NCBI GenBank assembly: GCA_030248215.1
Contig: JASANG010000598.1
Span: 184,805 to 248,804, forward strand
Direction: 5' to 3'
DNA length: 64,000 nucleotides
DNA from: Enoplolaimus lenunculus
Taxonomy: Eukaryota > Nematoda > Enoplea > Enoplida > Thoracostomopsidae
Positions 3,843 through 59,307 of this stretch are shown piece after piece (the first letter of the stretch is position 1; each line of letters starts with the position of its first letter). Both the position numbers and the translations under genes were made by a program. Under the pieces are notes generated by a model. That model saw only the letters and a list, made by a program, of their open reading frames with translations, was not told where the DNA came from and did no database searches.

Positions 3843-4002
3843 ATGTATTTTGGCTCGAAATCATATTTTTACAATCAACGTTGCCTTACCAAACCACGGC
3901 CAGTTGACTGTTGTTCAGTGTGCTGGTATGCACTCGTCGCCCTGATGTCGCTAGCTCAAGTCTGCCAGGTTCATATGATTGCTGCCGAAGACTATTTAAA
4001 GC
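3843..4002 (+). CDS. Candidate signal-peptide exon
   Basis: ATG 3843 opens 53 codons plus one base, ending at a consensus donor AAGC|GTAAGT (4003). The peptide has a hydrophobic segment (WYALVALMSLAQV, residues 29-41) after a Cys-rich N-terminus and ends AAEDYLK. The donor is phase 1, like the other two leader exons at 17479-18388 and 30596-30911. It could be a distal alternative first exon of the Ly6 gene 28 kb downstream, but an ORF this short is expected by chance. Support is only the leader, the good donor and the phase. Confidence 0.3.
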
Positions 4003-7000
4003 GTAAGTTTGTAGCTTTTAATTTTTGTCAATGCATGAGAGAGGGGGGTTACCGAATTTTAACATAACCAATGAATGATTCAAGTAAAGTGTATGGAAGT
4101 GACCATGGAGCCGCGTGATAAGAAAACTTTTCACTGACCCATCCGATATATTTATTGACGACAATAAAAACAATTTTGTTGTTTTAAAGTCATTCTTTAC
4201 TCGTCGTGTCGAGACACCGTTTTTGCTTGGCCTGTTAACAATTATTGACGCTTGGGTTGTAAAATGTTTCCCAATATAGAAACCAATACTGTGAAAAAAT
4301 ATGATTTTGACTGATGTTCAAGATTACTTAATGTTGAAACTGTGTTAAAGGTAACAGCCGTTGCTTTAAGTTTGAAATATTCTCCAGTGGTCACCGTTAT
4401 TAACGGTTTATCAGCTATGTTTCATTAAGCGAAAAATTTAAGCACATCGTTAAAGAGATTGAAATCAACTTTAACACAGTGTATAATTGAAGGATTTTTC
4501 ATCGGTAGCACAGTGTGCTTTAAACATGTTCCTGTAAATATGTCATTTTCATATCCGGGTTTTGTTCGTTATCAAAACGTGTCTTTTTTACCAAACCGTG
4601 CGAAATTATTCTTGATTTTGAAATTTCTATCTATTTGCATTCATAAAGCTTGAGTATTAATATGCGATATGTCCAGTGGACCATTCATATCTAATGGTAC
4701 ATTTCTACCTTCATTGAAGAAAATGTGGAGTATTTACAAACCTCAAACGCGAAATAGATACATATATTATACTCATATACAGTAAAACTGATTATTTTAC
4801 GTGAAAGAAGAGATTGAAAATTTTGTAAAGCAGTTATATGGTTTAGATTCTCGATGAAGATGAACTTCAGATTTTATCACAATGAATACGTGCTGCCTTT
4901 GAAAAGTTGCTAATTAAATTTGGTGTTCCTACTTCAATTTTGTCTATGCAAGAGCATTTAAAACAAGTTTCTAGTATAAGCCACACACTTTGGTAAAGGT
5001 CAATGTGGCAGCCGACAAATGAGTCACAAGAATATGAGTGAAAATATCAAACTTAGAAATAAAACGACTGATAGCACTGCAGATCTAGGTATATTTGAAA
5101 ATTTTTTATAAATTTTAAATTTATTAATTTTAACCGTAATCTGAAAAGTGTAACAATAATTTGTTTTTAAGCTTCCGTTGATGAGAAATCTTAGAAGTTA
5201 CGCTTCTAAAACAGCAACAAGGCAAACAAGTAAGCTTACAGATAGGAACAACGTTTACAAATGAGCAACCTTTGAAAGAGTCAGGAAGACAGGAAGAAGG
5301 AATCAAGGCGTTTGTTTGAGAATCGACTGCTCTTAGCAACAAATATAATGTTCACTTGATGCTAATTAGGTATGAACTGACGATGTATCCGTTTCTATGT
5401 AGCCCCATATGCCGCTATGTGTTCTTGTCTATAACTTAATAGAGTTCTTTTCAAACGATTACCCATTTCAAAAATCATCGACTTTTTTATTGGAAAGGCA
5501 AACTTTCATGTGACGAAAATGTGCGTATTCGGAAATTTTACAAGGTTCGCACGACAAGTCAAACCCTGCTCGACCGGAAGACAAACCATCCTGTTTACCA
5601 ACTGCGTCACATTGACAAAAATATAAAAAACTTCACTTTCGAAGTTTCCAAAATCACCGGCCAGTGTTTTACCGACTGCCAGAGGCGGAGGTCGACTTTT
5701 GACCTGATCTGGTGGCAGACCTAAAGGTTGTATCCTGCTTGTTGCATTTCTCCAGCAGAAAATTCGAAGGCCCGCGCTAATTCTTTAAAGCATATGACGC
5801 AGACCTGCCAGACTGACCATAAAAAGGCTTTTTAAACCCGATTGAACTGCATAAACCAGGCATTGTTGGTAAAAATACTGAATATAAATATTTTTTAATT
5901 TTAACTTGTACAACAGATTGCAGGTAGGTGTGACGAAGACTCACTCCTTCATACTGTAACTCAGTAGCGGCAGTGGAAGCTTTAACGTCTTTCTGGTCAT
6001 ATAAGAACACGAATATTTAACGCTGAACTACTGGTTATGATTTCCAAATTCCTATCTTTGTTCCAATAAATCATGAACGTTAAAGCTTAAAAGTTGTGAA
6101 ATACCGAAGCCGTGCAGCATCGTTTTCCAGCATGATTTGTGTCTGTGTTACCAAAGTTAGTGCCACGCAAACTTTCTGAGCTCACCTGATTATCGGCAAT
6201 CACTTGGGTCAATAGTTAAACAACAAATCATCGCTAAATGTTCACGTTTAAAAATAAATGGTTTGCAGCCACTTTTTGAACTTCCGAGCTACTTGTTTTA
6301 CGGTAGGATCCGATGATTTAGCCTCGAGATAAATTGAAACCGGTTAACATACGCTGTTAAATTAAAACTCAATCATGTCGTTATTCATCAAGCTTACGAA
6401 TTTCGTAACCAACACCGGATGTAGCAATTTCTCACGGGGATGGGCACGGTGTAGTGAAAAAAGGCTCGCGAGGAAAGCGTGGGAAAAGCGAAATTCTTTT
6501 TTTAGTTAGTGCTATATTTCAATTTTTTCTATCTCCGTTGTACGCCGTGGCCTTCAAGGCCCCTTTGGATCCGCCAGCGGTTCTACTAAATATTCGGAAA
6601 AGGTCGGAGTACTTTTCTGTGCTCACATTTGGAAATGATTAAACACTTTTGCTTTCTAAGCTTATATATATTGAACGTTGCGCAACTTTTAGTCTGCGGC
6701 AGTTCTTTGTGCAACTTTTGTACTATTTAGTGATTGATAAATCTGAGTACGCACGCAAGCTGTACAGGTTTCGAAATGCTGGGTTCCATTGCTGCTTGAG
6801 GCAGTGGCGTGCACACAAATTTGATTTAGTGGGATTCGGCGCTGAAAAAAACAAAATATTTCAAACAGAAAAGGTAAGCTGTTCACAATTACTCAATAAA
6901 GTAGTGCCTTTATCAGTCAAATGCAATTAGGATTTGTTTGCCTCTTCCCAGCCCCCTCTTAATACGCCAGTGCCAGGGCAGGAGGCGCCACCTCATACCC

Positions 7001-7519
7001 CCATTTGGGGCACCCTGAAACAAGAACCGCCGAAGTTTTAAAATGCGTCTGGCTTCTCGCTCGCGAAGTTGTGGGCCTCAACCCTTAAGTTTGTGGGAGC
7101 CCCACCTTTGTCTGCTCCGGTATTGCCGCAGTGACATATGGTTTTAGGGCTTGGTGGTTAAATGTGCGGTTCTACTTGCAAATTTAATGTGTTTTGGAAG
7201 CGTGTTGCATATCAGTTTGAAATATGTTTTATGTATATCTGGTTCTGACAATTATATGCAAACAAGCTAATTTAGCAATGATTTGTTTTAACTTTCTGAT
7301 ATTAGTATACAAACAAACGTGTTCGCTGCACACCAGGTGAACACTCAAAGAACTCGCTGATTTGAGCAATTGTATTGGTCGATCGCAGTAGTATTTATTA
7401 TGCGTGATTGAAAATAGGAATTTAACACGACTTCTGTATGAAATTTTGTGGAAAATTCCTGTTGCACTCTGATTTAAAACGAGTTTGTTTCTAGTTGCAA
7501 TGGGATATGAGGCGGCTTA

Positions 7520-7965
7520 CTCTTAGGCCCACACTAAGGCTGAGCCTCAGGTTTAAGCAAGTTTATTTAGTGTTTGCTAAAACCAAACGTTATTGCTTTA
7601 TAACGTATATACTTAAAATCCTTCTTGATTCAGCCCAGTGTAGTTCAACCAATAATGTGAATGATTTTGCATAGAGTATTAAATCGAACAACTAGTAGGC
7701 AAAAGGAAATCACACACTTCTTTTATATAGCGACCAAAATTTCACGATTCCAACCAAGAACACACTTGTATACAAATTTTCAACTGTTCAAAATGCTGTC
7801 CAATGCTAAAGATAAGGGGTGCAACAGCAGTAGAACAAGCTTAAACGTTAGACTAATTTTTTAGATTTAGGCTTAGGTGTAAGCTCATTCATGCACTTAG
7901 ACTTAGGCTTATGCTTAGGAATCTGCTTATACTACTGTTACGGCTGTGTTCTATACATTGGCCAG
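7520..7965. repeat. TTAGGC-like clusters (two blocks)
   Basis: The first block is 7520-7580 and the second 7863-7965. The second ends with GCTTATACTACTGTTACGG and ACATTGGCC, the conserved tail of this family. Confidence 0.7.
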
Positions 7966-9061
7966 TACGCTTAAAGAAACTTTTTGCTAAAAACAAAAAT
8001 TTTAACGTTTTGTGGTGTGGTTTTATATATTTAGAAATTTAAGCAAAATTAGATTTGCAACAGATTAACCGTTTCAAAGGTTTCGTATCGTCGGATAACT
8101 CTGCAGATAAATTTCTAAATTAAGGTTAAACCTACAGCTAAAAAATACAAAAAACAAGCATAGTTTGACATTTAATAGCCCTAACAACCAAATGTAGTCG
8201 TGATTGCCGGTTGCCAACTTTAAAAGCTGGGCCAAACTCGCGTCAGCAACTAAACTTAACCCAAACAAAAAATAATTGTGGTGCTACCGGAATACAATAG
8301 TGAAAACATAAGGAAAAAGTTTATCGCTCCAATGTTTTGCTTTATCAAACAATTTCAATAAAAGCTTGTTTTACTTAGTGGCGTAGCCAAAATGATGTGG
8401 GGCAGGGTAGCCGACACCACCCTCGAATCCATGTTCATTACTGTCGTCCAAAACACGACCTTATTGAATCATCGTTAATGGGTTACTAGTTGTTAAGAAC
8501 CAAAATATTTCCTTGTTTTAAGGTGTCTGCGCCCACAAATTTTAATCATTTGTCAAGTTACAATTGCCGGCTTCCACCAATTGAAATTCGTCAGTACGCT
8601 ACAGGCTTACGCGCTAAGTCAAGCTATTTTTGTGTGTTTGGGGCGCCGTATACGATAATTTTGCATAGGTTTTGACTTTTTATCGTCATGTTTATTGCAA
8701 AAGTGTCAGCAAAATACTTTTGGAACCAAGTAATTGAAATAAATTCGGCCTCGTCATAAAAACGACGACATGTTGCTGCCTGAATTAAAATCCAAATAAT
8801 TCTATTTTGGAAACGCAATTTAAACTATTCAACACACCAAATGAATACCTAGTTCTTCTACATGTTTCCGGTGTTTTTGTAAATGGTTGAAAGTCGTTAA
8901 TTTTTATTACTGTAAATTCACAAAAATACAACAAAATAGTCTAAATTAAAAAGTTTGAAACTTTTACTATTTTCAAAATTTTGATTACTTCCGTTTCGAC
9001 TATACACTTAATTGAAGCAAGATTAATCTGAGTTTTGCTGTTGGCTTTATGTACCGGTATA

Positions 9062-9450
9062 AAATGTCCTAAAACAGGGGCGTGGGCAGGGTTTCATTTC
9101 GGGAAACGCACGTAAAACATTTTTTGTTAAAAACGAGTGCAGCAAGCAATAATAAGTCTTTGAATTCTAGGATCCATCAGGTTGTGTTGTATTCCGGCAA
9201 AAGTGCTTTTTTCGCGTCCCTACCGAGATTTCGGGGGAGATATGTCCATTCCCTTTTACGATTATGCCCTAAAACCGCAACAAAGGTTGTACAAGTTAAC
9301 AGTGCTAAAGGTGATTTATCTGTCGCATACTCCCACGAGACTTTGCGTCCTGTATGTTTTCTTACCATCAAAAACAAGCAAAGCAGACCTGTTCGGATTT
9401 AGCGTACTGTCTGCGGCGGGTTTTCGATTTGGTTTTTTGTGTCGTTGAAC
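9062..9450. other. Locally GC-richer stretch open in three frames
   Basis: Plus-strand frames of 106 and 88 codons and a minus-strand frame of 66 codons overlap. None has a recognisable motif or convincing splice sites. It may be a transposon remnant. Confidence 0.25.
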
Positions 9451-9582
9451 TGAATAACTGCCCCAGAGGCAACGTTGAAAATTTCAATGTCACAATCTTT
9501 TTTATCGATCCAATATATTTAAAGCACTGCCATAAATAAAGCAAACACAAAATGTAACTTGTTTACACTAAAGCTTAGACTT

Positions 9583-9805
9583 AGCCCCATATTCTCATAT
9601 CGATCTACCACCCATCACCAGTTAGTAATAGGTTTTCAAACTAACGAACTGCTATAATTGCAGAGCTCAAAATTTGCGCAGATGTTGAGTAAATTGAGAG
9701 CAGCAAATGGGTTTAATTTCAAACCTCATTCTGGTTTCGAAACTTGTAATACCTATCTGCAGCTGATAATAGGAGCTACACACTTTTGAGAATATAAGCT
9801 ATAGT
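9583..9805. mobile_element. MITE-like repeat, copy 1
   Basis: Left end GCCCCATATTCTCATAT and right end ACACACTTTTGAGAATATAAGC are imperfect inverted repeats about 215 bp apart. The interior CAGTTAGTAATAGGTTTTC aligns with the copy at 11662. Confidence 0.65.
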
Positions 9806-11339
9806 CTTAGTTTAGGTTATTGCTTAGGTAAACTGCAACTTTAATATTTTACTGCATATAAAGCGCACGACTTTTTTCGAACGCAGATTCGAGAACTGCC
9901 TTTCAGACTGGCTTGTTTATAATATTTTTAGTTTAAGTAACAAACTATTAAACTATGATTTAAGCAATTTTGCGTCCGTACGAAGCTTTTCAATCAAAGT
10001 ACCAAGATATTAGAAGTTAACACAGATTGGAATTTATTGTAATATTGCTTTTACGCATTATTATTTAGGTTTCGCAACTATTAGTAGAAATCACTGAATC
10101 GTAGGTGCCACTCATTAGAACAGTAACTGAACTTTTAGGCAACCGAACTGAATCTAAACCTTGTATTAAGCTATTCGAGCTTTACCATGATTGCCAGAAT
10201 AAGGACATATCAAAAGCGGATAACGCTCTTTATAACAAGAGTGTGCAACTACGCAAATTCTGCGTATAAAACAATGTACCCAGCGCACGTTGCGCATTTG
10301 GCCGACCGCTCCCCCCCCTGAAAATTCATAAAAATTTGGGGGCACTAAAATACTCCGCTGATAGTCTTGAGTAATTCATGCGTTTTGGCAAATGTATACG
10401 CATAGAGCGTTACAACTCCCGTTTCCCGAATCAGGGGGGTCTGGATAAAATGCAACGCGCGGTGGTACATTTTGTGTTGCGGACTATCACGTGAGTTGCA
10501 TACTCTTCTGCAAGTTGGACATCATTATCTAAGTATATATGTGTTTGGACCTTTGACTCCTATAGCTTCACCCATGGCTTCAATACTCAGACTCTGTTTA
10601 AGTTCAAATTCATGCTTCATTTCTTCTGTCAGCAGGCAAATATACTGAAACGAGGAACTTTACACATGATTGTCTTAAAGCTGAACATTTATAGACGTTG
10701 CCATTCTCAGGGGCGCATACAAACGAAAGAATACAGGGGACACATTTCTTTCCAACACTTGAAGACGAGAAAAATGTACTGTTACACAATTTAGAGTGAT
10801 CTGGTGCATTTTTCGATTTAATAATTTATTTAGAATAAGGTTATACCCTCACGAAATCAAAATCCCGGTTATACCGTTTGCCGTTCTATGCGTGTCATGG
10901 TAACTCAGGTAACAGATGGTCAAAGTTGTTGCATTGTGACAATCGTGATTGATTTTATTTCATGTCCATTATTTCTCATGTTTGTCCAGTGCGGTAGCGT
11001 CGTGCGTTTGCATTGTTGCATTTTTGTACAATAACAGAACTCTAGTTGACATTTTATGGTTAAAAGTGCACCGGTTTCAAGTGTTTAATTGCTGCATACG
11101 CCCAGCCGTATTTTACGGTGAGAATTAATTCAACGCGAACGGTTGCCAAGGCCGTAACAACCGCTTCCCACAGACTCCATTTTAGGGCGCCCACTTCATA
11201 ATAGGGCCCGCGGACCGTAACAAGATTTTAAACCCAACATTTGAAAAATATTTTGATCATCGCAAGGGTCGCATAGCCCGGAATTTTTTCGCGACGCCCC
11301 ACCGTAGCCTGCTTCGGCATTGGCGGATGCCTATAAATA

Positions 11340-11495
11340 TTTCAGCCATAGTATTTTGAGTAGGATTAACAGTAGTATAAGCTTTTTTCTTAGCCAAGGT
11401 GTAAGCCTCAATGTAAAGATGAACATATTACTAAGGCTTAGCCGAAGCCTACACAAAAATAAGTAGTTTAAAGCTTAAGCTTACTTTATTGAATT
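11340..11495. repeat. TTAGGC-like cluster, reversed ends
   Basis: It begins with AACAGTAGTATAAGC, the reverse complement of the family tail, then mixed CTTAGCC and GCCTAA hexamers to about 11490. Confidence 0.6.
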
Positions 11496-11661
11496 TTGGC
11501 GAAAGAACTGTACGCCTTTTAAATTATCGCAGGTCACTATTTCAGAGGGATCCACACCATATTTCTGTAAACATTGTTTTCTTAGCAATTTTTTACATCC
11601 TTAATTGAACATGTTTGCATTATCCCTTTCTCATATGAATATTATCTATTTCATCTCTGAT

Positions 11662-11873
11662 CATGGCTCGTATTCTCAAATGTGTATATATCACACCTGT
11701 CATCAGTTAGTAATAAATTTTCGAACTAACTATTGCTGTTGTTTGGTAAGAGAATATAGAAAATCATATGCGAAAATGTGCTGAATTTGACCTCTGCGTT
11801 CACAGGTTTGAAAGTTACAAGACTTATCACCAATTGATGATAGGTTCTACGCACATTTGAGAATATGGGCCTT
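11662..11873. mobile_element. MITE-like repeat, copy 2
   Basis: Left end GGCTCGTATTCTCAAATGTG and right end CGCACATTTGAGAATATGGGCC form an inverted repeat of about 20 bp. It shares CATCAGTTAGTAATA and the region before the right end with copy 1. Partial relatives occur near 29359 and 45520. Confidence 0.7.
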
Positions 11874-13887
11874 AATTTTGAGTTAGAATTCCACCATAAC
11901 AACTCACCATTAAGAGCGTGCAGCTGAAGCGTGATTTGTCAGCCAGGCGGAATCGCAATTGGAACCCAAATTTTATCTCAATTTTAGCCGGAATTGGAAT
12001 TACACTGGAACCCTGAATATACTAACGTTTAATGTTATGCGCTGGCAGTGTGATGGTATTTTGAAACAAACTGTACATATTTCTTTTGAAATTTGCAACA
12101 TGCGAGATTCGGATTCGGCAAATTGGCAATATATTCGGAATCGGGTTAGGATTCGGTCAAGTCGTGGATTAGGTGAAACGCTACCTCACACAACAGGTCG
12201 AATCGAACAGAAGAGTGTGTTAAAAGAAATCGTTGGAAAATAGGGTAGTCGAAATAGTGGAATAAGAAAGATAACTGGACCCGCACAGTCCATTCGTGGA
12301 CTTCACAAACTTTTTAAGCTTCGGTGGAATCATAAGTTACTTCTCTAAGTGCAAATCTAGAAAAGTGCTTAGGTCGTAAATTTTGTTTCGTACTACCGGT
12401 ACAAATTTATTTTATGTGTCACTATAAAAAAACTCCGGTGTATAAAATAATGATGGTTAATAAAAGGGCCTGTTAGCCATATGGCCCCAGGCCTCCCAGC
12501 ACCGTAATCCGGCCCTGGTAAGCCTAAACGTTAGTCTAAACATGAGCCTAAGCCTGAGAGTAAATTTCAAGTGTTTACGTCACCCATTACTCCTGTTTCC
12601 TAATTGGCAGGCCCCTATTCTTGAACTGGGCCAATTAGCTAGCATACTATTTCTACCTATTAGTGTTACTAAATAAAGTGCAGATTTTGCTACAGGGCAT
12701 AATAACGTGGGTGTTAACGTCAATAAAGCCCGTGACAAAGACCGACAAAAGACTTCATGAAACACTGTAAAAGTTGTAGTTTTTAATTTAACATATATAC
12801 AATTCATTAGCTGGTTTTTTGACGTTTACAAGCCACCGGCACAAAGCAAAATGTTACGTAAATACAAATGGGTTTTAGTTTTGTTTGGTTTTGTATTGTG
12901 AAGCGTATATGTCTACTATAAATAGCTTTAGCACTGTACATATCGCCAGCGGTTTATTTGTGATACGCGGTCAGAAGCCAGATTAGAGCCAGATCAAGGG
13001 TTGAGACCTATTTTTGACTTCGCTTGTAGGTGTATCTGATGTACGCTCAAAATATAGCAAGAGTTAATTTTTACGCTTTTCGTTAAAAATGTCTTCATCT
13101 ATCAAGGGCAATGAATTAAATAGAATACTGCAGACTGCAATTTTGCTAAACCAAACACCAATGATTTAGGATCTTGCTAGCATTTTAGTTCAGACGAATA
13201 TAACCTCGCTTAATACTCTAAAGTTTGTTTAAAATGTTTTATTGTTGTCTTTTCAGAAATCCGGTAGGGCACATATCTAATCTATTTTTTCCTTTGTACA
13301 CGCGACACCGCCGCAGATTTAGTCAAGGAAGTTAGTGTTTTGTGAGATGGCTGGCGTTTTTAAATTCTGTCACACCATGCAATTTAAATTGTTACACTTG
13401 TTAAATATCGACCAAAACAATACTATTTTATTTTTTCAAGCAAATGTTTTAGTTATAAATTTTGCTGTTAGCATTTCACCGCGACAGATGGCTGATTTTT
13501 AAGTCGACATGAGTAAATGTTTCAGATGCTGCTTGTATAATTTTCGAGTGTCGCGTTTGCTTTCGGACGCCTGTTGCTTTATACTGGTTTACTTTTTAAA
13601 GTTTTTGCATTGGTAATAAACCCTTCCTAACTTAAAAAGTTTCCTATTAAAAATTTCTTATTTTACTTTAGATTTAATTTCAAAATCTAATTAAAGCTAA
13701 AACACAGAACATATGTTAATTTGGGCATATTTTCAACTAACTGTTACATTATATCACACCATATAAATCAAATGTTTCATATTATTGTTATCTACGAAAC
13801 AATGGCGTAATCGGGAGGGACGCAAGGGGGCCATGGTCCCCCCAATCGTTTTGAAAATTGAATAAATTGAAATCGGATGCCGTGTTC

Positions 13888-14063
13888 GTTTGACTTCCAC
13901 ACATTAGTTGTTGGTGTTTTCATATTAACTGAACCGACATTTCTTTAGCGGTATATGTACCAAAATATATTTTCTCACCCGTTGATGTGTGTAGTGACTG
14001 TTTTTGTACCATTTCTTTTCATCAAAACTGTTGTATAACCAACGCACAGGGTACAACTGGAGG
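13888..14063. repeat. Direct repeat, copy A
   Basis: From TTCCACACATTAGTTGTTGG to AACCAACGCACAGGG. It is similar along its whole length (about 175 bp) to 14363-14533. Confidence 0.75.
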
Positions 14064-17265: not shown

Positions 17266-17478
17266 AGGTTAGAATCCATTCACGTATTTTGTTTTCGTAC
17301 GGTTTCATATTTGAGAAGCCATCTGGTTGAAAGTCAAATATATATTTTAATACGAAAAGTTGTCTGATATATTAATTAGAACCTCGTTGAAACAATTTTA
17401 AGTTAAAAAATGAGCTATTACCTAATTACTGCAAACCACAACTATAACATACCAATTTTTATTTAAGAGTAATCACTT

Positions 17479-18388
17479 TTGTTACAAAATACGTATTATT
17501 CCATGCAACTGCTGTGTCATTTAACTGCCGTTGTTAATATTGCATGTAAAAAATTTCTTCGAAACCAACCGAAAAAGTGCCTTAACTATCAAATTGGTAA
17601 AGTTATAAACTTCACTGAACAGTTTGTAAATCTACGTAAGAGGCAACATTGCCACGATAATTTTGTCTCGAAATCTAATAATTCATTTCCGCAAAGACTT
17701 CTTTTGGTGCTTGGAATACTGGTCACACACACGATTGAGTCGGCCTCGTGCCGAAGTATGCCGACTAGATTGCCAATCAGCGAAAAAATTAAAAACGACC
17801 CAAAAAATGACGCACAAAATCGGCACGAATCAAAATATGTTACCGAGAAAAATTTTCAAATTCTACAATCGGTTCAAAGTAACGTATTGTTTTCGCACGC
17901 ACCATTTGGTTATTTGCCTATTTCTCGCAGTCACGACCTGCGCATGTCCCCTTTTTCGAATGCCGACGTGTCCGATTATGAAACACAAAATTCGCAACGA
18001 TTTGCAACCGTGCCCCTTTACTCTAACTACGAACCGCCGACAAAACAAAAGCTAAAACCAGACAGCGAAGACGTAGCTACTGCATCACCGGATCCGCGGA
18101 CAATTAATAATGGTCAAATTCAGAAAATTTCGCCAAGCTCAAGATTATTTCACGGCGTGCTGGAAACGTTTCATAATTCAAACGGTGACAAAACTTTACC
18201 ATCGGGTTCAAATAATGTAGCGAAAGGGTTTAGAGCCGAAACTCAACCAAATCCTGCGCAACTTCACGGCGTAGAAAGTAGCCCAGAAGCTCAAAGTCGT
18301 CACTACAGCGGCTATTCGCGTATGGTTCATTCAAAACCGGCAAACGTTCCAGCATTGCCGTCCATTGTTGATCCTGAAAAATACAAAG
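17479..18388 (+). CDS. Orphan long coding exon with hydrophobic leader, possible alternative first exon
   Basis: An open frame of 314 codons runs from ATG 17479 to a stop at 18421-18423. This is far too long to be chance at this base composition. The likely exon end is 18388, at donor AAAG|GTATAT, leaving 303 codons plus one base (phase 1). A hydrophobic stretch (LLLVLGILVTHTI, residues about 74-86) followed by SASC looks like a signal peptide or signal anchor, so the real start may be a downstream in-frame codon. The remainder is hydrophilic, rich in Ser, Asn, Pro and Lys, with no domain I recognise. No matching downstream exon was found nearby. Its phase fits the Cys-rich second exon at 32229, which would give an EKYK-D-TTKCYSC junction. 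It may therefore be an alternative 5' exon of the Ly6 gene, or the first exon of a separate secreted protein. Confidence 0.7.
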
Positions 18389-18607
18389 GTATATTTTGTA
18401 TGAGGTGTGACTTATACAGGTAGTCAGGTAGTTTTTTCGTTTGAATGGGATTGAATCTAATGCCAAGAAGAGGAATTGACCGGACTGCCTGCCGTCAAAT
18501 AAACTGTAGGTTTAGCTTGTGAGATCGGAAATACATGTAGAGTTAGATTGCAAGGTGAATTTTTATTAAAATACGGTCACTTGTACACTTTTTTACATAT
18601 TAAAGTT

Positions 18608-18695
18608 GAGGCCTTAGGGTGAGGTTCTGGTGTAGGACAGGGTTATGCAAGGCTTATATAAGCCTTTGCTAAAACCTAAAGCTTGAGCGTAAATG
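18608..18695. repeat. Short TTAGGC-like cluster
   Basis: CCTTAGGGTGAGG, GGCTTATATAAGCC and GCTAAAACCTAAAGC resemble the other clusters but are more decayed. Confidence 0.45.
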
Positions 18696-20224
18696 CTTGA
18701 AAGGACGTGTACAACAGCCAAGATATGTCTGTCTATAAGTTTTTTCAACTCTAAAATGTTTAAGCACGCAGTTGTGAAAGTTTGACGTATAGTTTGACGT
18801 TTTAATTCTAGTGAAATAATGCAAGTGCTTACGAATGACAAATTTCACGCTGCGAAAGAGCGATAGGTCTTCCAACGTAATGCAGAACGTTGTTGGTTTC
18901 AATTCGCTGGTTGAAAAGTTGGAAAGCCTAGCATCAACAACTAATGGGTCCTCACTAGCTGATCCTGAGTTCAGAATTTTTTGTGAAAAAATGATCAGGT
19001 CCCTTCCCACCTTACAATTTTTCCCTTCAGAAATTTTCTTGGGGATAAAACAATAAGCCTTCTTTACATTTTTTCGCTTCCGATGGCGTATTTAGCATAC
19101 AGTATAAACTGCGTTTCATAATATTTGCCAGGCAATCTACATGTTGTAAGCCAAACACCTATTCAGCTTAACAATAGCTAGACGGTTTACATCACATTGA
19201 TGTTCTTAGATAACCTCAGCTCAGCATTGGCATTAAAGTTGAATAGAAGTTTGACTTAGGCCCAAAAGCAAATTCTCCATGCTGCAATGGCGTGAATTAA
19301 GCATCAAAATATTCGAAATAGCAAATTGGCCAGAATACCAGGTCTACCAAATGACAGATATGTTTTGCTCAATTCAACCGGATTATAAACTTTTTACAGT
19401 GCCACATATTTGAAGCTATAGATTAAATTCTTATTCTATACATAGTATTTAAACCTAACAACCTATTCAGTATCGAATTCAATCGGATGTAATCCGCCAC
19501 CGGCCTTATCAGGCTGACATATTTTGCGAAACAAATAGTTCAACTAAAACTCGCTATGTGCTTTCTAGCCAAATAAGTAACAAACATGACGGAATTTCAA
19601 CTTGAACACAAACATTTTTCGCCTTCGGCGCAATCGGTCCATCTTAAAATATTGAAATTTTGGTATAAGGTCCTTTAAAATTGCCAATTTTGGAAAACAA
19701 AGTTGAAAGCATACTCACTGCTAACCACAGCTTCACTGTATCGGCACTTGCACATTTGAACAAAATCTTGCTTATTTTGGACATAAATTCCAGCAATGTC
19801 GTTTTTCAAATCTAGTCAGATTTTCGTGCTATACGTGGTATGAACCTGTATAATTTGTCTTCTCAGAATAGCAAATATACTGCTATAGTGCGTAGAGTGG
19901 AAAATTGCTTTCTCTCAATTAGAACACACATATCAAGTGACGCAGTCACGCAAAAAACGTCAAAACTTTTTGTTCATTTCCGTCATTTGTCATGTTTTGA
20001 GCCCAAAAATAATGTCCACAAATAGTAAGTTGTTCGCAAATGTGTAAAGGTAAAACCCGTGGTGCATTTTGTTAAACGTACACTATACTTCAATGTTTTT
20101 TCAATAGTTTTCCTTTCAATGTTCATTTGTAGTTTTCTTTTTTTTCGCCTGGAAGTTCATTGAAGAATTTGGTTTCGGTAAATTTTTCTACAATCTTTGC
20201 ATAAAATATTTGGCCAATATTACT

Positions 20225-23882: not shown

Positions 23883-24012
23883 TAAAGCTTTAGGCTAATT
23901 TTTTTGTATACACTTAAATTAGATGTTGTTATAAGCTTATTTTTTATGTTTGGCTTAAGATTACGAATATGCTTATACTACTGTTACGTCCCTCAAAGTT
24001 GCATTGACCGTT
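23883..24012. repeat. Decayed TTAGGC-like cluster with complete tail
   Basis: Isolated TTAGGC and TGGCTTAAG units, then GCTTATACTACTGTTACG, CCCTCAAAG and GCATTGACC. It shows the full tail module. Confidence 0.65.
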
Positions 24013-24570
24013 CATTTTATGTGTTTACTTTTATTGAGAACACTATCTCGAAGTTCAGCTTTATCACATTGCAGATTAGGCTTGCAGAAATTTAATTTTT
24101 TAGAACGCATGATTAATAATCAGAGCAGAGCCTTAATTTAATAAGAATAAAAATGAAGTAAACATTTGTGTTTTTAAAGTAAACCGTTCGAACATTTCAT
24201 AACTTATTTTTTGAATTTTACTTAATTTTAGTTTAAACCTTTTCACCTGTAGAGTATACTATGAGCAATTATAAAATTGCAAATTGTGTACGCGCAATAT
24301 TTAGAATTCATTTTTCGCGCACGCAGTACAAAAACGTCAGAAAACCTGAAAATATACGCACATCCAATTTGCATTTTTTATATAATTGCTTTAACTCTTC
24401 CAATATTGTAGTCTTTGTATCGGGTTAAAAGATTAAAATACATAAATGCAAGTTGTCAAAGATTTATCACCTTTATCACCATATGTGCACGTTAAAACTA
24501 AAAAGTTGATAAGCCTAGTCCGTCGACAAAATTCGGTTATCGTTCACACGAGCGTAGCCAAAGTTTTGGT

Positions 24571-25053
24571 TCAAGAAGGTATAACATGATGTAAACGTGT
24601 TATGGCCAGCAAGCGAGCGAATTTTTTGACCCATACACTCCAGTAAGTTATTCTAAATCCTGCAAAATAGCCTATATTTTCGTGCTTTTTTGCAATTTCA
24701 GGTGGGAATGTGACCCCCTCTATTTCTCCCTGCATATGAAACTGATCGTTTACCACGTTCACTGCAGTTTGGGCCAAAGCCAACGCTGCAATTTTTCTTA
24801 ACTCTAATTTAATATATGCGACGACGTAATTTTGTGTCCAGCTTGTTTTGCTTGTTTTAGCCGCTACTGCGCAAACTGAACGCTGGTTATTTTTTATGGA
24901 ATAAAACTCACCAGTATACAAAATTGTTGTACATTTTGATGCTTCTAATGAACTAAACGAGTGCAACAACACGGTGAAAAAACTGCAGAACGCTATATAT
25001 TGCATTGAACACGTGACAGCTATAAAATTGCATAAACTAAATTTTAAAACCAT
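24571..25053 (-). CDS. Single-exon ORF, 160 codons, secreted-like, unknown
   Basis: ATG at 25053 to a stop at 24571. The N-terminal ~37 residues are hydrophobic (IAFCSFFTVLLHSFSS), then SLEASKC, resembling a signal peptide. The rest is mixed, with a central Ala-rich stretch and a hydrophobic/basic C-terminus. No family is recognised. By a rough estimate from stop-codon frequency, an ORF this long is unlikely but not excluded by chance in 64 kb. There is no splice or neighbour evidence. Confidence 0.3.
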   Translation of the reverse strand: MVLKFSLCNFIAVTCSMQYIAFCSFFTVLLHSFSSLEASKCTTILYTGEFYSIKNNQRSVCAVAAKTSKTSWTQNYVVAYIKLELRKIAALALAQTAVNVVNDQFHMQGEIEGVTFPPEIAKKHENIGYFAGFRITYWSVWVKKFARLLAITRLHHVIPS

Positions 25054-25424
25054 GAAGAGTTAAATCCACGTATAGAAACAGCTATGTTCCCGGATTCGTC
25101 TGTAACTATATTAAAATGTGTAACTGTTCGATAGCTTTAGTGCCTATCCTCCAACAATTAGTCGCTGAGACTGGTGTGGATCCGGGTGACAAAACGACAA
25201 TTTTGCATATAATTGAGATTAACTTCCGTGATTATTTCATTTCGACAAATTTTCGATTGAAGCCAAATTAGTGTTTACCATAACATAATGACAACTTTGC
25301 ATTAAACCCATATAGTTAAATTTAGCTGAGCAGTTTATGCAAAGTCGTTCTGTTGCACACTTTCCCTCTAACATTTAAAGTTATAACGCAAATGGAAGAG
25401 AAGACATAGCCAAAGACATACGGT

Positions 25425-25485
25425 TAGAGTTAGGCAAACTTTTTCCTAAGCATAAGCCTAAGCTTAAGCTTGAAAGCAAATGTGG
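25425..25485. repeat. TTAGGC-like cluster
   Basis: CCTAAGCATAAGCCTAAGC followed by TTAAGCTTG; short and without the tail. Confidence 0.55.
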
Positions 25486-27042
25486 TGGCAAAACGTATAA
25501 CTCGATAATTCAGATCATAAAAAGCACACAAAGAGCGAAAGGGAAACGGAAAAATATACTCAATAGATGCATCTGTTTAACCAATCGTATCAGATTTACT
25601 GTTTGATTAAGCGAACAAAACACAACCAACCGTAACTATGATTTGACCGTTTTTTTCTATCCGTACAATATCTTTTAATTCATTTCTTATTCGGCCCCGG
25701 CGTACTCGCAATAATTAAAAGCCACTTTTAATGTCAATAGCTCGATACTTTTTGTTTAATAGACAAGTGTCTGTGTGTGTGCGATAGTTTTACCGTGAGA
25801 GAATGGGTTTAACAAACAAAGGAAGACTTAAATCGAGATTAATGCATCAAAAAATGCGCACATGAACGAATATAACGAAAATCCAAAACTTTAAAACTGT
25901 GTGACATTTCTTCGATACGTAGAAAACGCCTGGGTCTAATGGCTTAGCCATGAGTGCCGTCAGAATATTGGGCTTTAGAATGTGCATTCTGATGTTTTTG
26001 AGTAAAACGAATAATAGGATCGCAGCGTGACACCATTAAGCAACTTTTTTAATCTATACCTATTAGAAACTACTCAACGAATCCAAAGGGGTGCAGGCAC
26101 ACTTTCTTGCAAACCGGCACCCATACGGGATTGCCTAAATGATATTCGAGACCTTCGATTAAATACGAGCCAATTGTGAACATTAAAAAAGTGCAGTTGA
26201 ATTTTACGGTTTGTACGCTTTGTGTCCAGATTTAAACCGATTTGTTTAATTCTTCATAGCAAATATATAGAAAGTCACTTTTTTAGTTGAGATGCAGTTG
26301 GCTTGCTCAGGTTCGAGCCCGTAGCTACCTTAGAAAATTTTCAACCTTGCTTGTAAGTCAACGAACGCCGGTGTTCTTGTAAGAGCAAACTAATAAATGT
26401 TTAGCCCTTCCAAAGCAAGCTGGCCCTATAAATTGAACTTTGACAATTTTTTCGCTGATAGAAAGATATGAAGGCACCGGACACAGATTCAATATGAATC
26501 AACTTTTCTTTATGATGTTTGTTCTGCCCTACGAATACCAGACTAAATGTACCAATATTTTACCAATGCAGGCGTGTATTTATTCTCTTTTGACAGTTGT
26601 AGAATGGTTTTACAACCTTAATATTAACGTGGAGCATTTTTCACCACCAAGTAACATCTTGAGCTTATGAGCTCGGGAAAAAACAGCCTCGTTAACAGTT
26701 TCACATGTTTGCTATTAAAATCAAACCAATCGTGTGTGATGTTTTTAGTGGAAGTTATTTTTGTAACGATTAGAGTATTTTCACATCGACTGCTAACATG
26801 TAAGCTTCATGAATGTTATACTATATCCAGTTTTCGTCACCTGTAAATTTTTCCATTTAGAAAAAGACTCGGTACAGTTATCGGACCATTTATCTCCAGT
26901 TGATGCGCGGGCGTGTGCCCAGAGGCTCTAGTAACTTTTTCTCTCGCTAAACTAGTTTTAGTAACCTGCTGGCAGCAGCAGTTCCCACACTAATGTACAC
27001 AGACCGATGTGTCAAACAAGTGTAACTGGAAAAACGAACTCG

Positions 27043-27257
27043 GGGCCAATGTATAGATGAGGGCCGTAAACAGTGTATAAGCTTTTCCTAAGCCTAAGCG
27101 TAAGCCAAAGCCAAACCCGCGGGCCAATGCATATATGAGGGCCGTAACAGTGTATAAGCTTTTCGTAAGCCTAAGCGTAAGCCAAAGCCAAACCCTCGGG
27201 CCAATGCATATATGAGGGCCGTAACAGTGTATAAGCTTTGCCTAAGCCTAAGCGTAA
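27043..27257. repeat. Tandem array, about 78 bp x 3, with TTAGGC-like core
   Basis: Units start GGGCCAAT at 27043, 27121 and 27198. Each holds TATATGAGGGCCGTAA, CAGTGTATAAGC and CCTAAGCCTAAGCG. The third unit is broken by the transposon at 27258; its continuation (GCCAAAGCTAAACCC) appears after 28331. Confidence 0.85.
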
Positions 27258-28328
27258 TGCATCATCCACATTAAAGAATGTTGCTGTGTGGAGAAAAATG
27301 GTACACATTCCAAAACGCAAATTTCGAAATTTGATTCAATTCCAGTACACGCAAGCTAAACATTTAGGTCAATCATCATAATCGTGGAATACGTAAACTA
27401 ACGTATTTTGTAATAGCGCATTTTACAATTTTATAAAATGTTATTGGTGGTCTAAAGTTCAAGTTTACCACAGCACGACTCTAGAAACAAACAATGATAC
27501 AGTAGACGTTTTCCAGAAATCGTGAAAGAGTAAACATTTACATTCTCAACTACGTAACGAGTTTTATTCTTAAAATTTTATCTCAAGTCATTTTAGTTAA
27601 ATCTAACATAATGCAATTCTAGAGAACCCGTTCGTGTACAATGACATATCTTGTACACCAGCAATTTGGAGTTAACAAATATCAAATAATCTTGAAGTGA
27701 ACAAAAGATAAAAGTGCGTCTTCGTAAGTCTGTTAGTTTCAAGTTTTAAAGACGTCACATTTTAAAGAGTCGTGAAAGTCGAAAATTACGATTAAGTGAA
27801 ACGTAAGCCTTTATTAATAACGGGGGACCATATTGTCCATTACTTGAGTCATGCAATATACTAATCCATCATGTTGATTTTCTACGAAGCGTATAAACTA
27901 TAAAACTAGGATTTATGTAATCGTTGAACTTAGCAATTTGATAAATGATAAAATATATAAATATCAGATATGCACATGTGTCGAATACTCCACTTGCATG
28001 TGCTAGATTAGATACAATTCCCGTAGACGTTACATGAAGATCTGCAAATTTTGTTACGACAACAATTTTAAAGATTACTATTATTTACCTATTCCAGTAC
28101 ACGTATAACTGTGACATTATGGATATTAGGAATAACATGTTTGTGAACGTGCGTGTATTGGAATTGGACATTAAAGGTATTTCAAATTACTCTGTGAAGT
28201 AAAATTTAACGAAACTAAATCATGTTAAATTCCAATACACGCAAACTATTTTATTTCTAATTTACCCTATTTTCCGGAATTGAATCAGCCCTTTCCACAC
28301 AGCAACATTCTTTAATGTGGATGATGCA
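27258..28328. mobile_element. 1,071-bp DNA transposon (non-autonomous) with 35-bp perfect TIRs
   Basis: Left end 27258-27292 and right end 28294-28328 are perfect inverted copies beginning TGCATCATCC. TAA is duplicated on both sides (27255-27257 and 28329-28331), which fits a PIF/Harbinger-type 3-bp duplication. The flanks join to CTAAGCG-TAA-GCCAAAGC, identical to uninterrupted units of the adjacent tandem array, so the empty site is visible. The motif CCARTACACG occurs about four times in the interior (near 27342, 28095, 28151 reversed, 28231), possibly protein-binding repeats. No transposase ORF is present. Confidence 0.85.
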
Positions 28329-28799
28329 TAAGCCAAAGCTAAACCCTCAACGTAAGAATAAACATATTCGTAAGCGGTGACCAATGCCTTAAACATAAGT
28401 TAAGCAGTCACGAAAAATAGTCCGGCCATCATCCATACATGGGATCACGACAGCAAGGGGAACCAAGTCGTTCTCAGCCATGCGTAAAAAGCTACCATCT
28501 GACCTGTAAATCTTATAGCTTCATGTTCGAATCAAATTAGTTTTAAGCACAATTTATGGGGCCATTGTGGTATTTTTAGATACCTAAATATATATCGGAG
28601 AGACTACAAAGTAGGTTGAAGATGTTTTCTGTTAATTAAATAATGGAATTAAAAAAGACTTAAGAATGTCCATAAAGACTTGTGGAAACACAAAAAATAG
28701 TGTAATGCGAGTGTTTACCAGAGCTGGTGGCTTATTGGTCGAAATCCTTTATGAAAATTTTGTCTTGCGCAATTTTTATGTTAGCAACACAAGAATCAC

Positions 28800-28925
28800 C
28801 AATTTTTACATAGGCTTAGGCTTCGGCTTAGGCATAGTTATAAAATTTATCCTTACACGGCACGGAGGTTAAGGCTTACGCTAATGCATAACCACTGTTA
28901 CACCCCTCGAAGTAACATTGACCTC
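28800..28925. repeat. TTAGGC-like cluster with tail
   Basis: TAGGCTTAGGCTTCGGC, then AACCACTGTTACACCCC and GAAGTAACATTGACC. The palindromic GTTAC...GTAAC pair in the tail is intact here. Confidence 0.7.
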
Positions 28926-29354
28926 ATTTTGTTTGAACCACTCTTATAAGATTTCATCATATATTTTGTGCTTGCGGCAAAATCAGCTCAACTTAACTCT
29001 CACTGTTATCTTATGATGTTCCATTAGTGGTGATAGACAATGTCTAGTCTGTAAGATATAAAGCCTAGTATTCTGTTAAACAAAAATACCGACAACTAGT
29101 TTCGTTTTTGACCGTCATTTTATCATGAAATTGTTTAGAATTTAAGTTTTTGACCGCTATTATAGTTTAAAAAAAACGGCTCATGCCGCGTTAACATCAT
29201 AAACGTATTTTGCAGCACTCAGAACAATTCCCAGCTTCGTTAAAGTTACAGCGTTTTAACTACGCTTAACATTGTTGTTTGAGAAAATTACGTTTCCAAC
29301 TCTCAGGCACTGCATTTTTTGGACTACGAAACTGTTATTTAACCCGTCGACACA

Positions 29355-29480
29355 GAGCGTGCATATTCTGAAATGTGCGTGGTGCCTATTCACTACTAGT
29401 TAGTGATGTTTTTAGAAGGTTCAACGCAGCGAAGCATTATGAGCTTTGAAAATTAGCAGATTTTTCGAAATTGATTTATC
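29355..29480. repeat. Partial copy of the CATATTCT MITE family
   Basis: GCATATTCTGAAATGTGCG followed by TACTAGTTAGTGATG and AGCTTTGAAAATTAGCAG follows the left half of the copies at 9583 and 11662. No right end is seen. Confidence 0.5.
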
Positions 29481-30545
29481 CTACTTCAAGGCAGAATCTG
29501 AGATCGACTTGTAGTTGGCTTGGCTGAAAATTAAGGTGCTTCGCGTAGTTAAAAATACGGTAACAGCTTTGGGGTGAGAAATTTCTTGGTGACTCTTAGC
29601 GTTATGTTTCAGTGCACAACTGTGGGAGTGTGCATGTTTCCAGTGCGTCATGAAATTCTCAATAATTACCGTCCTGCTTAGTCTGTGACTTTAGAAACGA
29701 CGGGCAAAACATTTTCTGTATATGAAATTATGCCGTCTTTCACTTAGAACGTAATTTTAAAATTTTTGAAAAAACCTTTTTGCCTCTTCAAAAATTTTGG
29801 TATGGTGTTATATATCAGGTTTACACTCCTTTGTATACGCGTCTGGTATTATTCAACCTGTCTACCCTTAAAATATAACTATCCTTATTATTATGCTGTA
29901 TATGCAAAAAAGCTGCACGCCCCCAAGCCTCGCACTTTGCAACCGACTAACAAACACAAATCGCATTCGACTCCTCACTGTGGAATATTCAGCATTCAGC
30001 CCTAATGAATCACTTGAATTGAGAATAACCGCTGTGTTGTCGAGCGTAGAATAAGTCTCGACAATCGACGTGCGAGGCTATGAAGTTCACTAGATCCTTC
30101 GTATTCCAGCCCTTGCGGTCTTTTGTAATAAGCAAAAAACCTGACGGTAAATCTGACTTTCTGTGATAGATCAGATGTCAACATTTTGTGGTTTTGTTAT
30201 TACTACCTTAATTCACGCCAGGAAATAATCGCTTGTAAACGAAACTTCATTGATAGTTGTACTATGTGGGACGAGTCTACGAATCGAGCCACAGTAGACA
30301 GCTCACTCTCGAGAAATTTCGGCAGCCTAGAAAGGTTTAAGCCGCGGTTTGCAACTCGTGCAGTTTTTCCGCATGCTGCTCTTAAAATTGTTTTGCTCGC
30401 CCCTAAAACATGTTGAGCTGGTTACTGGCCTGAAGCCATATCTATTTATTTATGTCAATCTTGACTCATGCGATAGGTTAATGTGTTGACATTGTTTTGA
30501 GTTTAAATATAGACACGAAATTTACTATAGCCACTGACAAACTTC

Positions 30546-30552
30546 TATAAAA
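30546..30552 (+). promoter_or_regulatory. TATA-like box upstream of the Ly6 gene
   Basis: TATAAAA lies about 50 bp before the ATG at 30596, leaving room for a short 5' UTR of roughly 20 nt. In such AT-rich DNA this can be chance; position relative to a supported first exon is the only support. Confidence 0.3.
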
Positions 30553-30595
30553 TGAGTCTACAATTTGTCGTCACTCGTCTAAGAAGTTACTATCG

Positions 30596-33572
30596 ATGAA
30601 TGTTGTGAAATTTTGTTCCGCTCACCGTGTCATTTTACTATCAAACTCCAACTACAAGATAATTACGCGTCTAATTGGGATAATTATTCTAAGTATGTCA
30701 CTGAATGATTGTGCTACAGCCGCGAGTGAAAATGGTGACGCAGGTGTGACACCCTTGTCAACCAGCCGTGCCTTGCCTTTTATACGGCACTACCCGGAGA
30801 AAGAGCCACCTCCTCCGGCTCCAATAGTTACACCGCATTTTTATTTGTTCAACCCTGATCGACGGCTTATGTTTCTTGATACTGTTGAATCGGATCAAAT
30901 TGTATACACAGGTGAGGCAACGAAATGTTCCACACAAGTTTTTGTAAGACTAACATTGTAAGATGGAGATAAAATATTTCATTTGAAGGCATATAGCGGT
31001 AGAATTTGAAGATTGTATACTAAAAGATTTCATCATTAATTTTGACTGTATGATATGGTTTAATCAGAGCCGACTCTGGTACACTTTCTCGCGCATTTAA
31101 GATTAAGGATCAAGCATATGCTTTAGCTTGAGCCTTACGTAAAGCGTGTGGTAAAAGTATACTTTTAGTAAGCAGTTTACGTAATTTAAGCCTAAGCCGA
31201 AGCCTAAACGCTGTTACATTCCATGTTCAAAACCACTTTATGTTTTCCCAATAAATTTTATTTTTAAAAGAATGGTGTGGAATGACAGATACCACCTATT
31301 TAACGGTGAAATCGTGAATTGTACAAACGTTTTCAATCATATATGTTTGTGGTTTGAGATATGTTTTACTTTACAGTTCGCAGGAACAAACGCGGATGAT
31401 GACTATGGGATTGTACTGTAGTGACCCGAATAAAAGGGAGGGACTGATATTTATTTGGCCTCTCCAAAAGGTACCCCCTGTTATTTGGTTACGAACTTAT
31501 ATTTATTTTTAATCCACGCTCCGCCACCCTTCGTTCCTGATATATATTCGGTACTAGAATTATCTATTGAATTAAACGTTTGTCTTGTATCAAAAGCTTG
31601 AGCGATATTCTATTTCAAGTATTATGCAATGGTTTGATTTTAAAACCTTAAAAAATTGGGTGCATCCGCAATTTTTTAACAATCCCTATGAATAGTATCA
31701 CACCTCAAATGTATTGGCGGAAAAACAAAACGACTTTTAAGCTTTTATGCTTCAATATTAGTTTTCTATTTTCGCTTCCGCGATATTAATCACTGTTCAT
31801 TTCGGTTTCCGTTTTTATTATTACAAAATTTACACGCTGAAACCAAATACATTATGTGAAACAGTGCGTTACGCTGTTCGTTTTCTTTTTCCAACAGTGA
31901 TGGGTAGTGTGAAAAAAATTACAAAATGTCACATTTCATATCGAATGTTTTACATTTATCCAATTAATGTTCTCAGAACTTGTGCAAAGCGAAACTCGTC
32001 ATGGACGCATAGACAAATATTAGTTGTGGTTCGGAGTTAAATTTAAAATAATTTTTATTAATTACTAATTTGTTTATTTTACTTAAGCTTTATTTTAAGT
32101 TTCATATTTCAAAACGGTTTTCGCGCAGCTGATCAGCGCCACAACTTTTGAGCCTAAAACCTGACTACCACATTTCCTTCTTGTTTCTTCATCTATGAAG
32201 GTTAAAGTATGCGCATTCATCGTTTCAGATACTACCAAATGTTACAGTTGTATGTCAGATGTATATCTGAGAGCGTGGTCGAGGCTCAAATATACCTATA
32301 CACAACCGCGCAACTTTTCCGAACAATGTAACGACAACTATCAACAAGCGAATATTGGATTGGTTGACTGTCCGACAATTTGTGTTGTGATGATTGATGA
32401 AACTGTGATAGCGGGTAAAATCAAACGAACGCCCATTCCGCGTTATTCAGTTTCGCATATGCAGAATACCGATTTGGGATGTGCCAGTGGGGTCCAGTGA
32501 AGAAAATTTTAAATAAAAGCTACTATACTTAACTGCAAAATTTACACTTTTTAGAGGCAGCTTTACTTTATATTCCATCCAATCAAAGTCGCTTTAGAAT
32601 TACAGGAAGTGCAACTGGACTTCCATTGCACAACAGCGCTAATGGCTACACAATAATTTTAGCTATGGGCATCCAAGATTTTTTTCTTATACGGATATCG
32701 CGCTAATTTTCATATTTCTGATATTTGGAATTACTTCTTTTTGCATCTGTGAGTCCGAATTTTTGTTCTTTACGAACTTTTTAACCAATAGCGTTTGAAT
32801 CAAGTGCCTTGTGAAGCATAATGAGTTGTCTGAAAAATATCAATGATAATGAAACACAAAAGCAAAATTTCATGTTTCAGTTCGCTAGCAGTACGAACAA
32901 GCAACGCCTAGGAAACATAGTGTAGAATAGTACAATTACGAACCGTGGAGGATTTGTTACCTGCTTGCAGGCGCAATATGTCTCAAAAGAAAACGCGGGA
33001 GAGGAAATAATTGACCGTTGACTAGTTCTTGCTGAAATAATTATTAACAAAATGCTAAGCAGACGAAATTACAAATTTTAAACGCGGCATTTTTCGCTTT
33101 TGTTTCAGGTTTTAGCTACTTTGGCTTTATTCGCGGTTGTTACGACAACATTTTGCAATCAGGATTTAATCAAACCATCGTACAACAGGACGGATGGCTC
33201 CGAATGAATACGTGTCGCCGTTACGATCGCTATGAACTGTTAAAACTGTCCAGAAGGCATGTTCGACATCGTCACGCAGCGGCAACAACAAACGATGGTG
33301 GAATATGGTTGTGTGCTTGTTACGGTGATAAATGCAATCGCGGTGTGCCTAGATTTAATGCAGCAAACGGAGCACAATCGATCAAGCATATTGGTATTTC
33401 AACTGCAGGTACATTTTCTCGCTCGCCAACGCTGAGTCAAGTTGGTGGCCAACAATTTGGTGGCACATGGCAACAAATGCGATGGTTTAGGACAGCGGCA
33501 ACAAATGCACTGGTGCTACTTACGGTTTTGCTGGCGTCGGTTGTGAACGTTCTGTTGATTGCAGATCGGTGA
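30596..33572 (+). CDS. Ly6/three-finger GPI-anchored protein, ODR-2/HOT-like (3 exons)
   Basis: Exons 30596-30911, 32229-32414 and 33109-33572 sum to 966 nt (321 aa plus TGA). Both junctions are phase 1, with donors G|GTGAGG and G|GTAAAA and acceptors TTTCAG. Residues about 24-43 are a hydrophobic leader, followed by a Pro-rich linker containing PPPPAP. Exons 2-3 encode the cysteine domain: it opens CYSC (C110, C113) and then has C in SEQC, DC, IC, RGC, NTC, LCAC and KCN. That makes ten cysteines with the CN end typical of the Ly6/uPAR fold. NFS and NQT are possible N-glycosylation sites. The last ~20 residues are hydrophobic (LLTVLLASVV), as in a GPI-anchor signal. Known for the family: C. 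elegans ODR-2 is a neuronal Ly6-related membrane protein needed for olfaction. Assignment to ODR-2/HOT rests on the CYSCMS opening, the FIRGC spacing and the architecture; another Ly6 subfamily is possible. Ly6/GPI identity is fairly secure, neuronal function is inference. Confidence 0.85.
31085..31235. repeat. TTAGGC-like cluster in intron 1 of the Ly6 gene
   Basis: AGCTTGAGCCTTACG and AAGCCTAAGCCGAAGCC, then CTGTTACATTCC. It lies between exons 1 and 2 and may lengthen the intron. Confidence 0.6.
31420..31720. repeat. Inverse partial copy of the 21424-21850 element
   Basis: TACTGTAGTGACCCGAATAA, GACTGATATTTATTTGG, GGTACCCCCTG and AAACGTTTGTCTTGTATC match the reverse complement of 21553-21850. 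It lies in intron 1 of the Ly6 gene. Confidence 0.65.
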
Positions 33573-59292: not shown

Positions 59293-59307
59293 ATTTTTTG
59301 AATGTAT

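Follow-up and report, generated by a model that had tools for sequence, protein, structure and literature searches.

Can a single Ly6 domain be fitted with several different N-termini, each supplied by its own distant first exon? The question is raised by a locus of the nematode Enoplolaimus lenunculus within a stretch of 64,000 nucleotides (here called the window; C257:184805-248804 of the 296 Mb genome), for which an initial annotation had proposed that three leader exons sharing one splice phase feed one cysteine-rich Ly6 domain. The Caenorhabditis elegans gene odr-2 combines alternative 5' exons with common domain exons, its isoforms reportedly differing only at their extreme N-terminus, and Chou and colleagues are said to have described, in 2001, three odr-2 isoforms made from different promoters. 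By this analogy, alternative first exons would place the locus in a known style of gene organisation. The evidence set out below suggests that it is indeed an odr-2-like gene whose first exons are mutually exclusive; at least two of these, named B and C, would be true alternatives, a reading to which a probability of about 0.8 is given. The remaining candidate, A, is the least certain.

In the proposed mechanism a single plus-strand Ly-6-related gene of the ODR-2/HOT type would span about 3.8 to 33.6 kb of the window. A, B and C would serve as first exons, each under its own promoter, and each would supply a start codon, an endoplasmic reticulum (ER) signal and a distinct N-terminal linker, extending about 4, 211 and 61 residues, respectively, past a hydrophobic core. 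The phase-1 donor of every leader would be spliced onto the same two exons, which code for the Ly6 domain and for what is probably a glycosylphosphatidylinositol (GPI) signal. Promoter choice would set the cell type as well as the length of a cysteine-poor stalk presenting an unchanged domain.

A Ly6 domain and three candidate first exons

The Ly6 domain is encoded by two exons on the plus strand. The first of these, exon 2 of the predicted gene (32229..32414), starts and ends in phase 1 and reads (D/H)TTKCYSCMSD...DETVIA(G). TTTCAG stands immediately 5' of it and its first two bases complete the junction codon, which bears out the earlier claim that this cysteine-rich exon requires a phase-1 partner. 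Exon 3 (33109..33572) reads (G)FSYFGFIRGCYD...CACYGDKCN..., runs into a hydrophobic C-terminal tail and closes with a TGA stop codon at 33570-33572. When the two exons are spliced the product matches PF06579 (Ly-6_related), a family that Pfam describes as C. elegans ly-6-related, over residues 8-139 with an E-value of 9.1e-29 and 100.7 bits against a cut-off of 24.4. The Quiver/Sleepless profile (QVR, PF17064) also passes its cut-off (E 2.2e-7, 32.2 bits against 27.3), but far below the PF06579 score. Ly6-type proteins carry 8-10 cysteines in a pattern ending in ...CN, and the spliced domain satisfies this pattern, with ten cysteines that all fall within the first 140 of the 214 residues counted, between a CYSC start and an LCACYGDKCN end. 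A comparison with solved structures gave no sequence match to the domain up to E 1. The hydrophobic C-terminal tail, TNALVLLTVLLASVVNVLLIADR, was read by eye and suggests that the protein may be GPI-anchored rather than secreted.

Upstream on the same strand, reading frames and donors confirm the description of the three leader exons as open, hydrophobic and ending in phase 1. Candidate A (3843..4002) comprises 53 codons and one base, with its hydrophobic core at residue 31 and the donor AAGC/GTAAGT. Candidate B (17503..18388) comprises 295 codons and one base, with the core at residue 66 and the donor AAAG/GTATAT, whilst candidate C (30596..30911) has 105 codons and one base, the core at residue 26 and the donor ACAG/GTGAGG. 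The junction codon becomes His from A (C/AT) and Asp from B and C. The frame of B can be read from a TTG at 17479 (910 bases to 18388) and its first ATG is at 17503, to which the start has been corrected; no open stretch of the window is longer than the one that contains it (316 codons, 17473-18420). The 303-residue linker once ascribed to B has to be given up, the leader being 295 residues from this ATG, with about 211 residues, none of them cysteine, well past the core. C, with its 105 residues, is no poorer a leader than B. The isoforms with unrelated linkers were proposed as secreted proteins, where GPI anchoring is now suggested.

The cores are preceded by 30 residues in A, 65 in B and 25 in C, which is long for a cleaved signal; the leaders, B above all, may hold a signal anchor or follow an overlooked upstream exon. 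A Pfam search up to E 1 assigned none of the three to a family, and searches of the genome DNA with each leader, together with a protein search with B, returned self-matches only. A doubtful extra leader candidate, also in phase 1, lies between B and C at 26667..26799 on the plus strand (44 residues, weak hydrophobic core); chance alone should produce about one hit of this kind in 77 kb.

It could be argued that only C feeds the Ly6 domain, with B an intronless or separately spliced gene for a secreted protein and A a chance frame. Scored with a donor matrix, the donor of C is the best of the three (6.8, against 2.6 for A and 2.1 for B), C is also nearest to the Ly6 exon (1.3 kb), and the B frame, when read past its donor, meets an in-frame stop 32 bases on. 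No domain above cut-off is found, however, in the other open stretches around 17.5 kb. Altogether 25 open stretches of at least 88 codons start left of 32229. B, C and the Ly6 exon account for three of these, and a fourth lies left of A; the 21 others, at 4-32 kb on either strand, have no Pfam match above cut-off, the best match below it being an eIF3 profile at 18672-19091 on the minus strand (17.3 against 22 bits). No separate domain-bearing gene is seen at 4-32 kb, by a test that shorter exons would escape. Such a reading, with C as the only leader, is regarded as improbable, also in view of what is found at a second Ly6 locus.

The C11 paralogue

A gene in which several 5' exons serve a single Ly6 domain might keep this layout in a paralogue, and a copy on contig C11 does retain it. 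The first Ly6 exon of this copy is 92% identical to that of the window in protein and the first 84 residues of the second are 69% identical, with the aligned parts of both exons 76-83% alike in DNA; its product likewise terminates in a hydrophobic tail. A blastn comparison of the two upstream regions gave 275 matches, in which only the Ly6 exons pair with their counterparts, the 60 matches that were read being otherwise repeat-like. Because the exon DNA is only 76-83% alike and no other exon pairs with a counterpart, C11 is taken as an old duplicate and not as an allele.

Three plus-strand leaders in phase 1 precede the C11 domain. A' (C11:388676-388937) encodes 87 residues and ends at a C/GTAAGT donor, B' (C11:405311-406112) encodes 267 residues, and C' (C11:420000-420273), a counterpart of C by position only, encodes 91 residues. 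An initial listing of the long open stretches of C11 had placed one of 284 codons about 15 kb, and one of 98 codons about 1 kb, upstream of the Ly6 exon; the former is the longest open stretch of the 60 kb of C11 and contains B'. The leaders stand in the same order in the two copies, with comparable sizes (53, 295 and 105 residues for A-C; 87, 267 and 91 for A'-C') and comparable distances to the Ly6 exon (28.2, 13.8 and 1.3 kb for the window; 32.1, 15.0 and 0.8 kb for C11). Doubtful phase-1 candidates stand between the B and C exons of both copies, at 26667-26799 in the window and, with 51 residues, at C11:413859-414012 on the plus strand.

The leaders were also compared at their junction ends, taking the last 40 residues anchored at the donor and 500 shuffles. 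The tails of B and B' are alike (z 4.8, 2 of 500 shuffles as good), as are those of A and A' (z 3.1, 6 of 500). B ends in VPALPSIVDPEKYK/G and B' in FPQLLPMPNPDDYR/G, and by eye the likeness stops at the donor. Moreover, A and A' both have C before GTAAGT, an uncommon base at that donor position, giving His before TTKCYSC, where the other four leaders give Asp. These results speak against C as the sole leader: C11 has a counterpart of B, and probably one of A, at a corresponding position ahead of its Ly6 exon, and the B tail is alike up to the donor and, by eye, unlike after it, with both exons in phase 1. The proposal of one locus in which alternative leaders serve one Ly6 domain is supported by the C11 layout, by the phases and by the tails of B and A, and stops short of proof.

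Chance, cysteine content and counter-evidence

How easily could such leaders arise by chance? The scan sought an ATG, an uncharged hydrophobic core, an open frame and a phase-1 donor. Under the strict first setting, the window contributes C, and C11 contributes A' and B', with one candidate on the minus strand of the former and none on that of the latter; the setting was later loosened to admit A and B, and C' too, after A-C and, by eye, B' and C' had already been seen. The loosened setting gives four distinct phase-1 starts upstream of the window's Ly6 exon (A, B, C and the candidate at 26667) and four within the 45 kb that precede the C11 Ly6 exon, that is, 8 starts against a chance expectation of about 0.8 per 77 kb. 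Other phases served as controls in the same upstream regions, with none in either for phase 0 and one in each for phase 2, the one in the window being B with other donors. Downstream of the Ly6 exons the window holds one plus-strand and two minus-strand candidates, and C11 none on either strand.

In 150 runs of Markov-3 sequence (77.3 kb) the mean was 0.83 starts and the maximum 5, and the longest leader had 140 residues; a separate Markov-3 estimate gave a mean of 0.89 and a longest leader of 142 residues. Over five threshold settings the plus strands yielded 9, 8, 8, 5 and 3 starts and the minus strands 7, 3, 2, 1 and 1, with 1.88, 0.70, 0.48, 0.35 and 0.18 in Markov-4 sequence (60 runs) under the same settings. 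Stretches of at least 284 codons are expected by chance 0.0004 times. The strength of the case resides in the long exons, the common phase and the recurrence, and not in the short exons singly. That all the leaders arose by chance, as random open frames within 32 kb which agree in phase 1 by accident, is very improbable: the codon-usage evidence is weak and short candidates occur on the minus strand too, but none of the 150 runs reaches 8 starts, no chance leader exceeds 140 residues, the layout recurs in C11 and the leaders are low in cysteine.

The cysteine count covered the residues after the hydrophobic core in seven leaders, namely A, B, C, A', B', C' and a leader on contig C114 described below. 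With none skipped, 3 of 644 residues are cysteine (one each in B, C and A'), whereas about 23 would be expected at the 3.64% given by base composition (binomial P 1e-7). When the 8 residues adjoining the core are left out the count falls to 1 of 588. The five other frames of the same DNA contain 6-10 cysteines for B and 2-12 for B', and the other open stretches of at least 60 codons in the window and C11 have 3.79% cysteine; among those that reach 100 residues, 2 of 55 lack it. Runs of 193 and 211 sense codons without a cysteine codon make up 0.26% and 0.16% of placements. Such a low content fits linkers that would pass through the ER beside a disulphide-rich domain. Since disordered protein is generally low in cysteine, it backs the view that the leaders are real and non-globular more firmly than the view that they are secreted.

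Several results weigh against a gene with alternative first exons. The tails of C and C' are unlike (z 0.7, 117 of 500 shuffles as good), C being closer to A' (z 1.4), and A scores nearly as well with B' (z 2.9, 13 of 500) as with A'; the remaining five of the six cross pairs range from z -0.9 to 1.9. Compared from end to end, B and B' show hardly any likeness (20 of 500 shuffles as good), none of A, B and C aligns with its C11 counterpart in DNA, and part of B' ahead of the core matches a repeat that is dispersed over the window. The minus strands yield three candidates at the loosened setting (two in the window and one in C11), and at the loosest the plus strands barely exceed the minus strands (9 against 7). 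Kinase loci, scanned over 208 kb on both strands, yield four starts, including candidates of 458 and 698 residues, so that long exons of other genes can pass the scan. Short leaders such as A are individually within the chance range. The donors of A and B score low, though that of the Ly6 exon itself scores just 1.7. Finally, codon-usage totals are barely coding-like (B -7.5, C -3.9, A +3.0), and in C114 no leader beyond a single C-type one is found on the plus strand within 20 kb.

The codon-usage scores come from training on kinase exons (20 fragments; of 30 loci, 9 had stops and one an empty core). When 782 stretches are ranked by their best 50 codons, A is 54th, B 24th and C 82nd, with the true Ly6 exon 2 at 42nd; codon usage separates coding from non-coding sequence too weakly here to decide anything. 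As to the B' repeat, its frame before the core crosses a TAAGCC-like element at C11:405400-405431, which is also present in the window.

There is also an intermediate reading, overlapping with the preferred one, in which B and C (with B' and C') are true alternative first exons and A and A' are chance frames or the first exons of another gene. A is short, its donor scores 2.6 and it lies within the range of about 0.8 chance starts per 77 kb; its tail is nearly as like B' as A', and A' has a weak transposase likeness below cut-off (15.5 against 28.6 bits). Set against this are the same order of A and A' in the two copies, their shared C/GTAAGT donor, a junction likeness equalled by only 6 of 500 shuffles and the passage of A' through the stricter first scan. 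This reading is considered unlikely, but appreciably less so than C acting alone. Pfam searches with A', C', the C114 leader, residues 1-229 of the 267 of B' and the further leader-like exon described below gave below-cut-off matches only.

Relatives, neighbouring features and meaning

Over the whole genome, 20 exon matches to PF06579 exceed the cut-off, on 12 contigs. A tree of eight first-exon sequences resolves into four pairs, the window copy joining C11 with a support of 0.93. The pairs (C257/C11, C114/C824, C100/C12 and C43/C103) are such as large-scale or whole-genome duplication might leave. Like the window gene, the other members have a Ly6 domain split over two exons wherever both are seen, with a CYSC start (C11, C114, C824, C100, C12, C43, C103 and others). 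Three leaders are seen in the C257/C11 pair only, most other members being read with 1.5 kb flanks: C100, C12, C824, C43 and C103 were scanned to that extent, and C43 and C103 have short phase-1 candidates within it. In C114 a third copy, which shares the exon border, is preceded at 1.5 kb by a plus-strand phase-1 leader of 68 residues (C114:203257-203461), a counterpart of C by position only; this lone C-type leader speaks for C as the only leader in the window too.

A further phase-1 leader-like exon was found by a scan that allowed any Met. It lies at C257:177759-178317, about 6.5 kb left of the window and 38.7 kb upstream of the Ly6 exon, and encodes 186 residues (119 from a later Met) up to a GAAA/GTAAGT donor. 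C11 shows no counterpart of it over the 22 kb that precede A'. The exon may represent a fourth leader or be part of another gene.

Spliced leaders were sought as well. The 22-base SL1 sequence was not found anywhere in the genome with up to two mismatches, which speaks against a typical chromadorean nematode. A search with the Rfam SL1 model found nothing among the 50 of 112,346 candidates that were scored, and its positive control gave no match either.

Downstream of the Ly6 gene, the window contains a PHD finger exon on the minus strand (44011-44436, Pfam 2.1e-6) and a possible C2H2 finger, below cut-off, on the same strand (40333-40731). The two, spanning 40333-44436, belong perhaps to one chromatin-factor gene. 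An RNase H fragment on the plus strand (54810-54992, 2.1e-6) is probably part of a retroelement. Weak Ly6-like matches at 10.6, 55.0, 56.1 and 62.7 kb were rejected as further Ly6 exons, there being no cysteine-rich exon like exon 2 in their context and 54.8-55.0 kb being the RNase H fragment. At 58274-59382, tandem arrays with units of 8 to 39 bases, mostly variants of GGGACAGT and its complement, give rise to long open frames in both directions. Neither the Rfam nor the tRNA scan of the window produced a match.

The likeness to odr-2 of C. elegans lies in a Ly-6-related domain and in the combination of alternative 5' exons with common domain exons; the difference is that B would put about 211 residues between the core and the Ly6 domain. 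Two studies use separately named odr-2 promoters, odr-2(16) for RME and SMD neurons (PMC8626090) and odr-2b(3a) for AIB and AIZ (PMC7644224). Part of the literature searches on such first exons found no paper, most subscription journals lying outside their coverage. New in the locus described here are the cysteine-poor stalk of about 210 residues in B and the retention of the layout after duplication.

A bolder version of the preferred reading, for which the odds are judged somewhat short of even, concerns the stalks themselves. Promoter choice might set stalk length both in this gene and in its old duplicate, offering a very short stalk, a medium one and one of about 200 cysteine-free, disordered residues, with the leader 38.7 kb upstream perhaps a fourth option. 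Stalks of this kind would be kept for their length and their lack of cysteine and not for their sequence, so that B and B', unlike as they are, might be functionally equivalent.

For annotation, the locus serves as a warning that first exons 14-28 kb from their domain may be missed or called separate genes. If the reading is true, alternative first exons of the odr-2 type have outlived a duplication, in a genome where no canonical SL1 was found, though their sequence was almost wholly replaced. The conserved trait would then be the layout itself, namely the choice of promoter and the length of the stalk.

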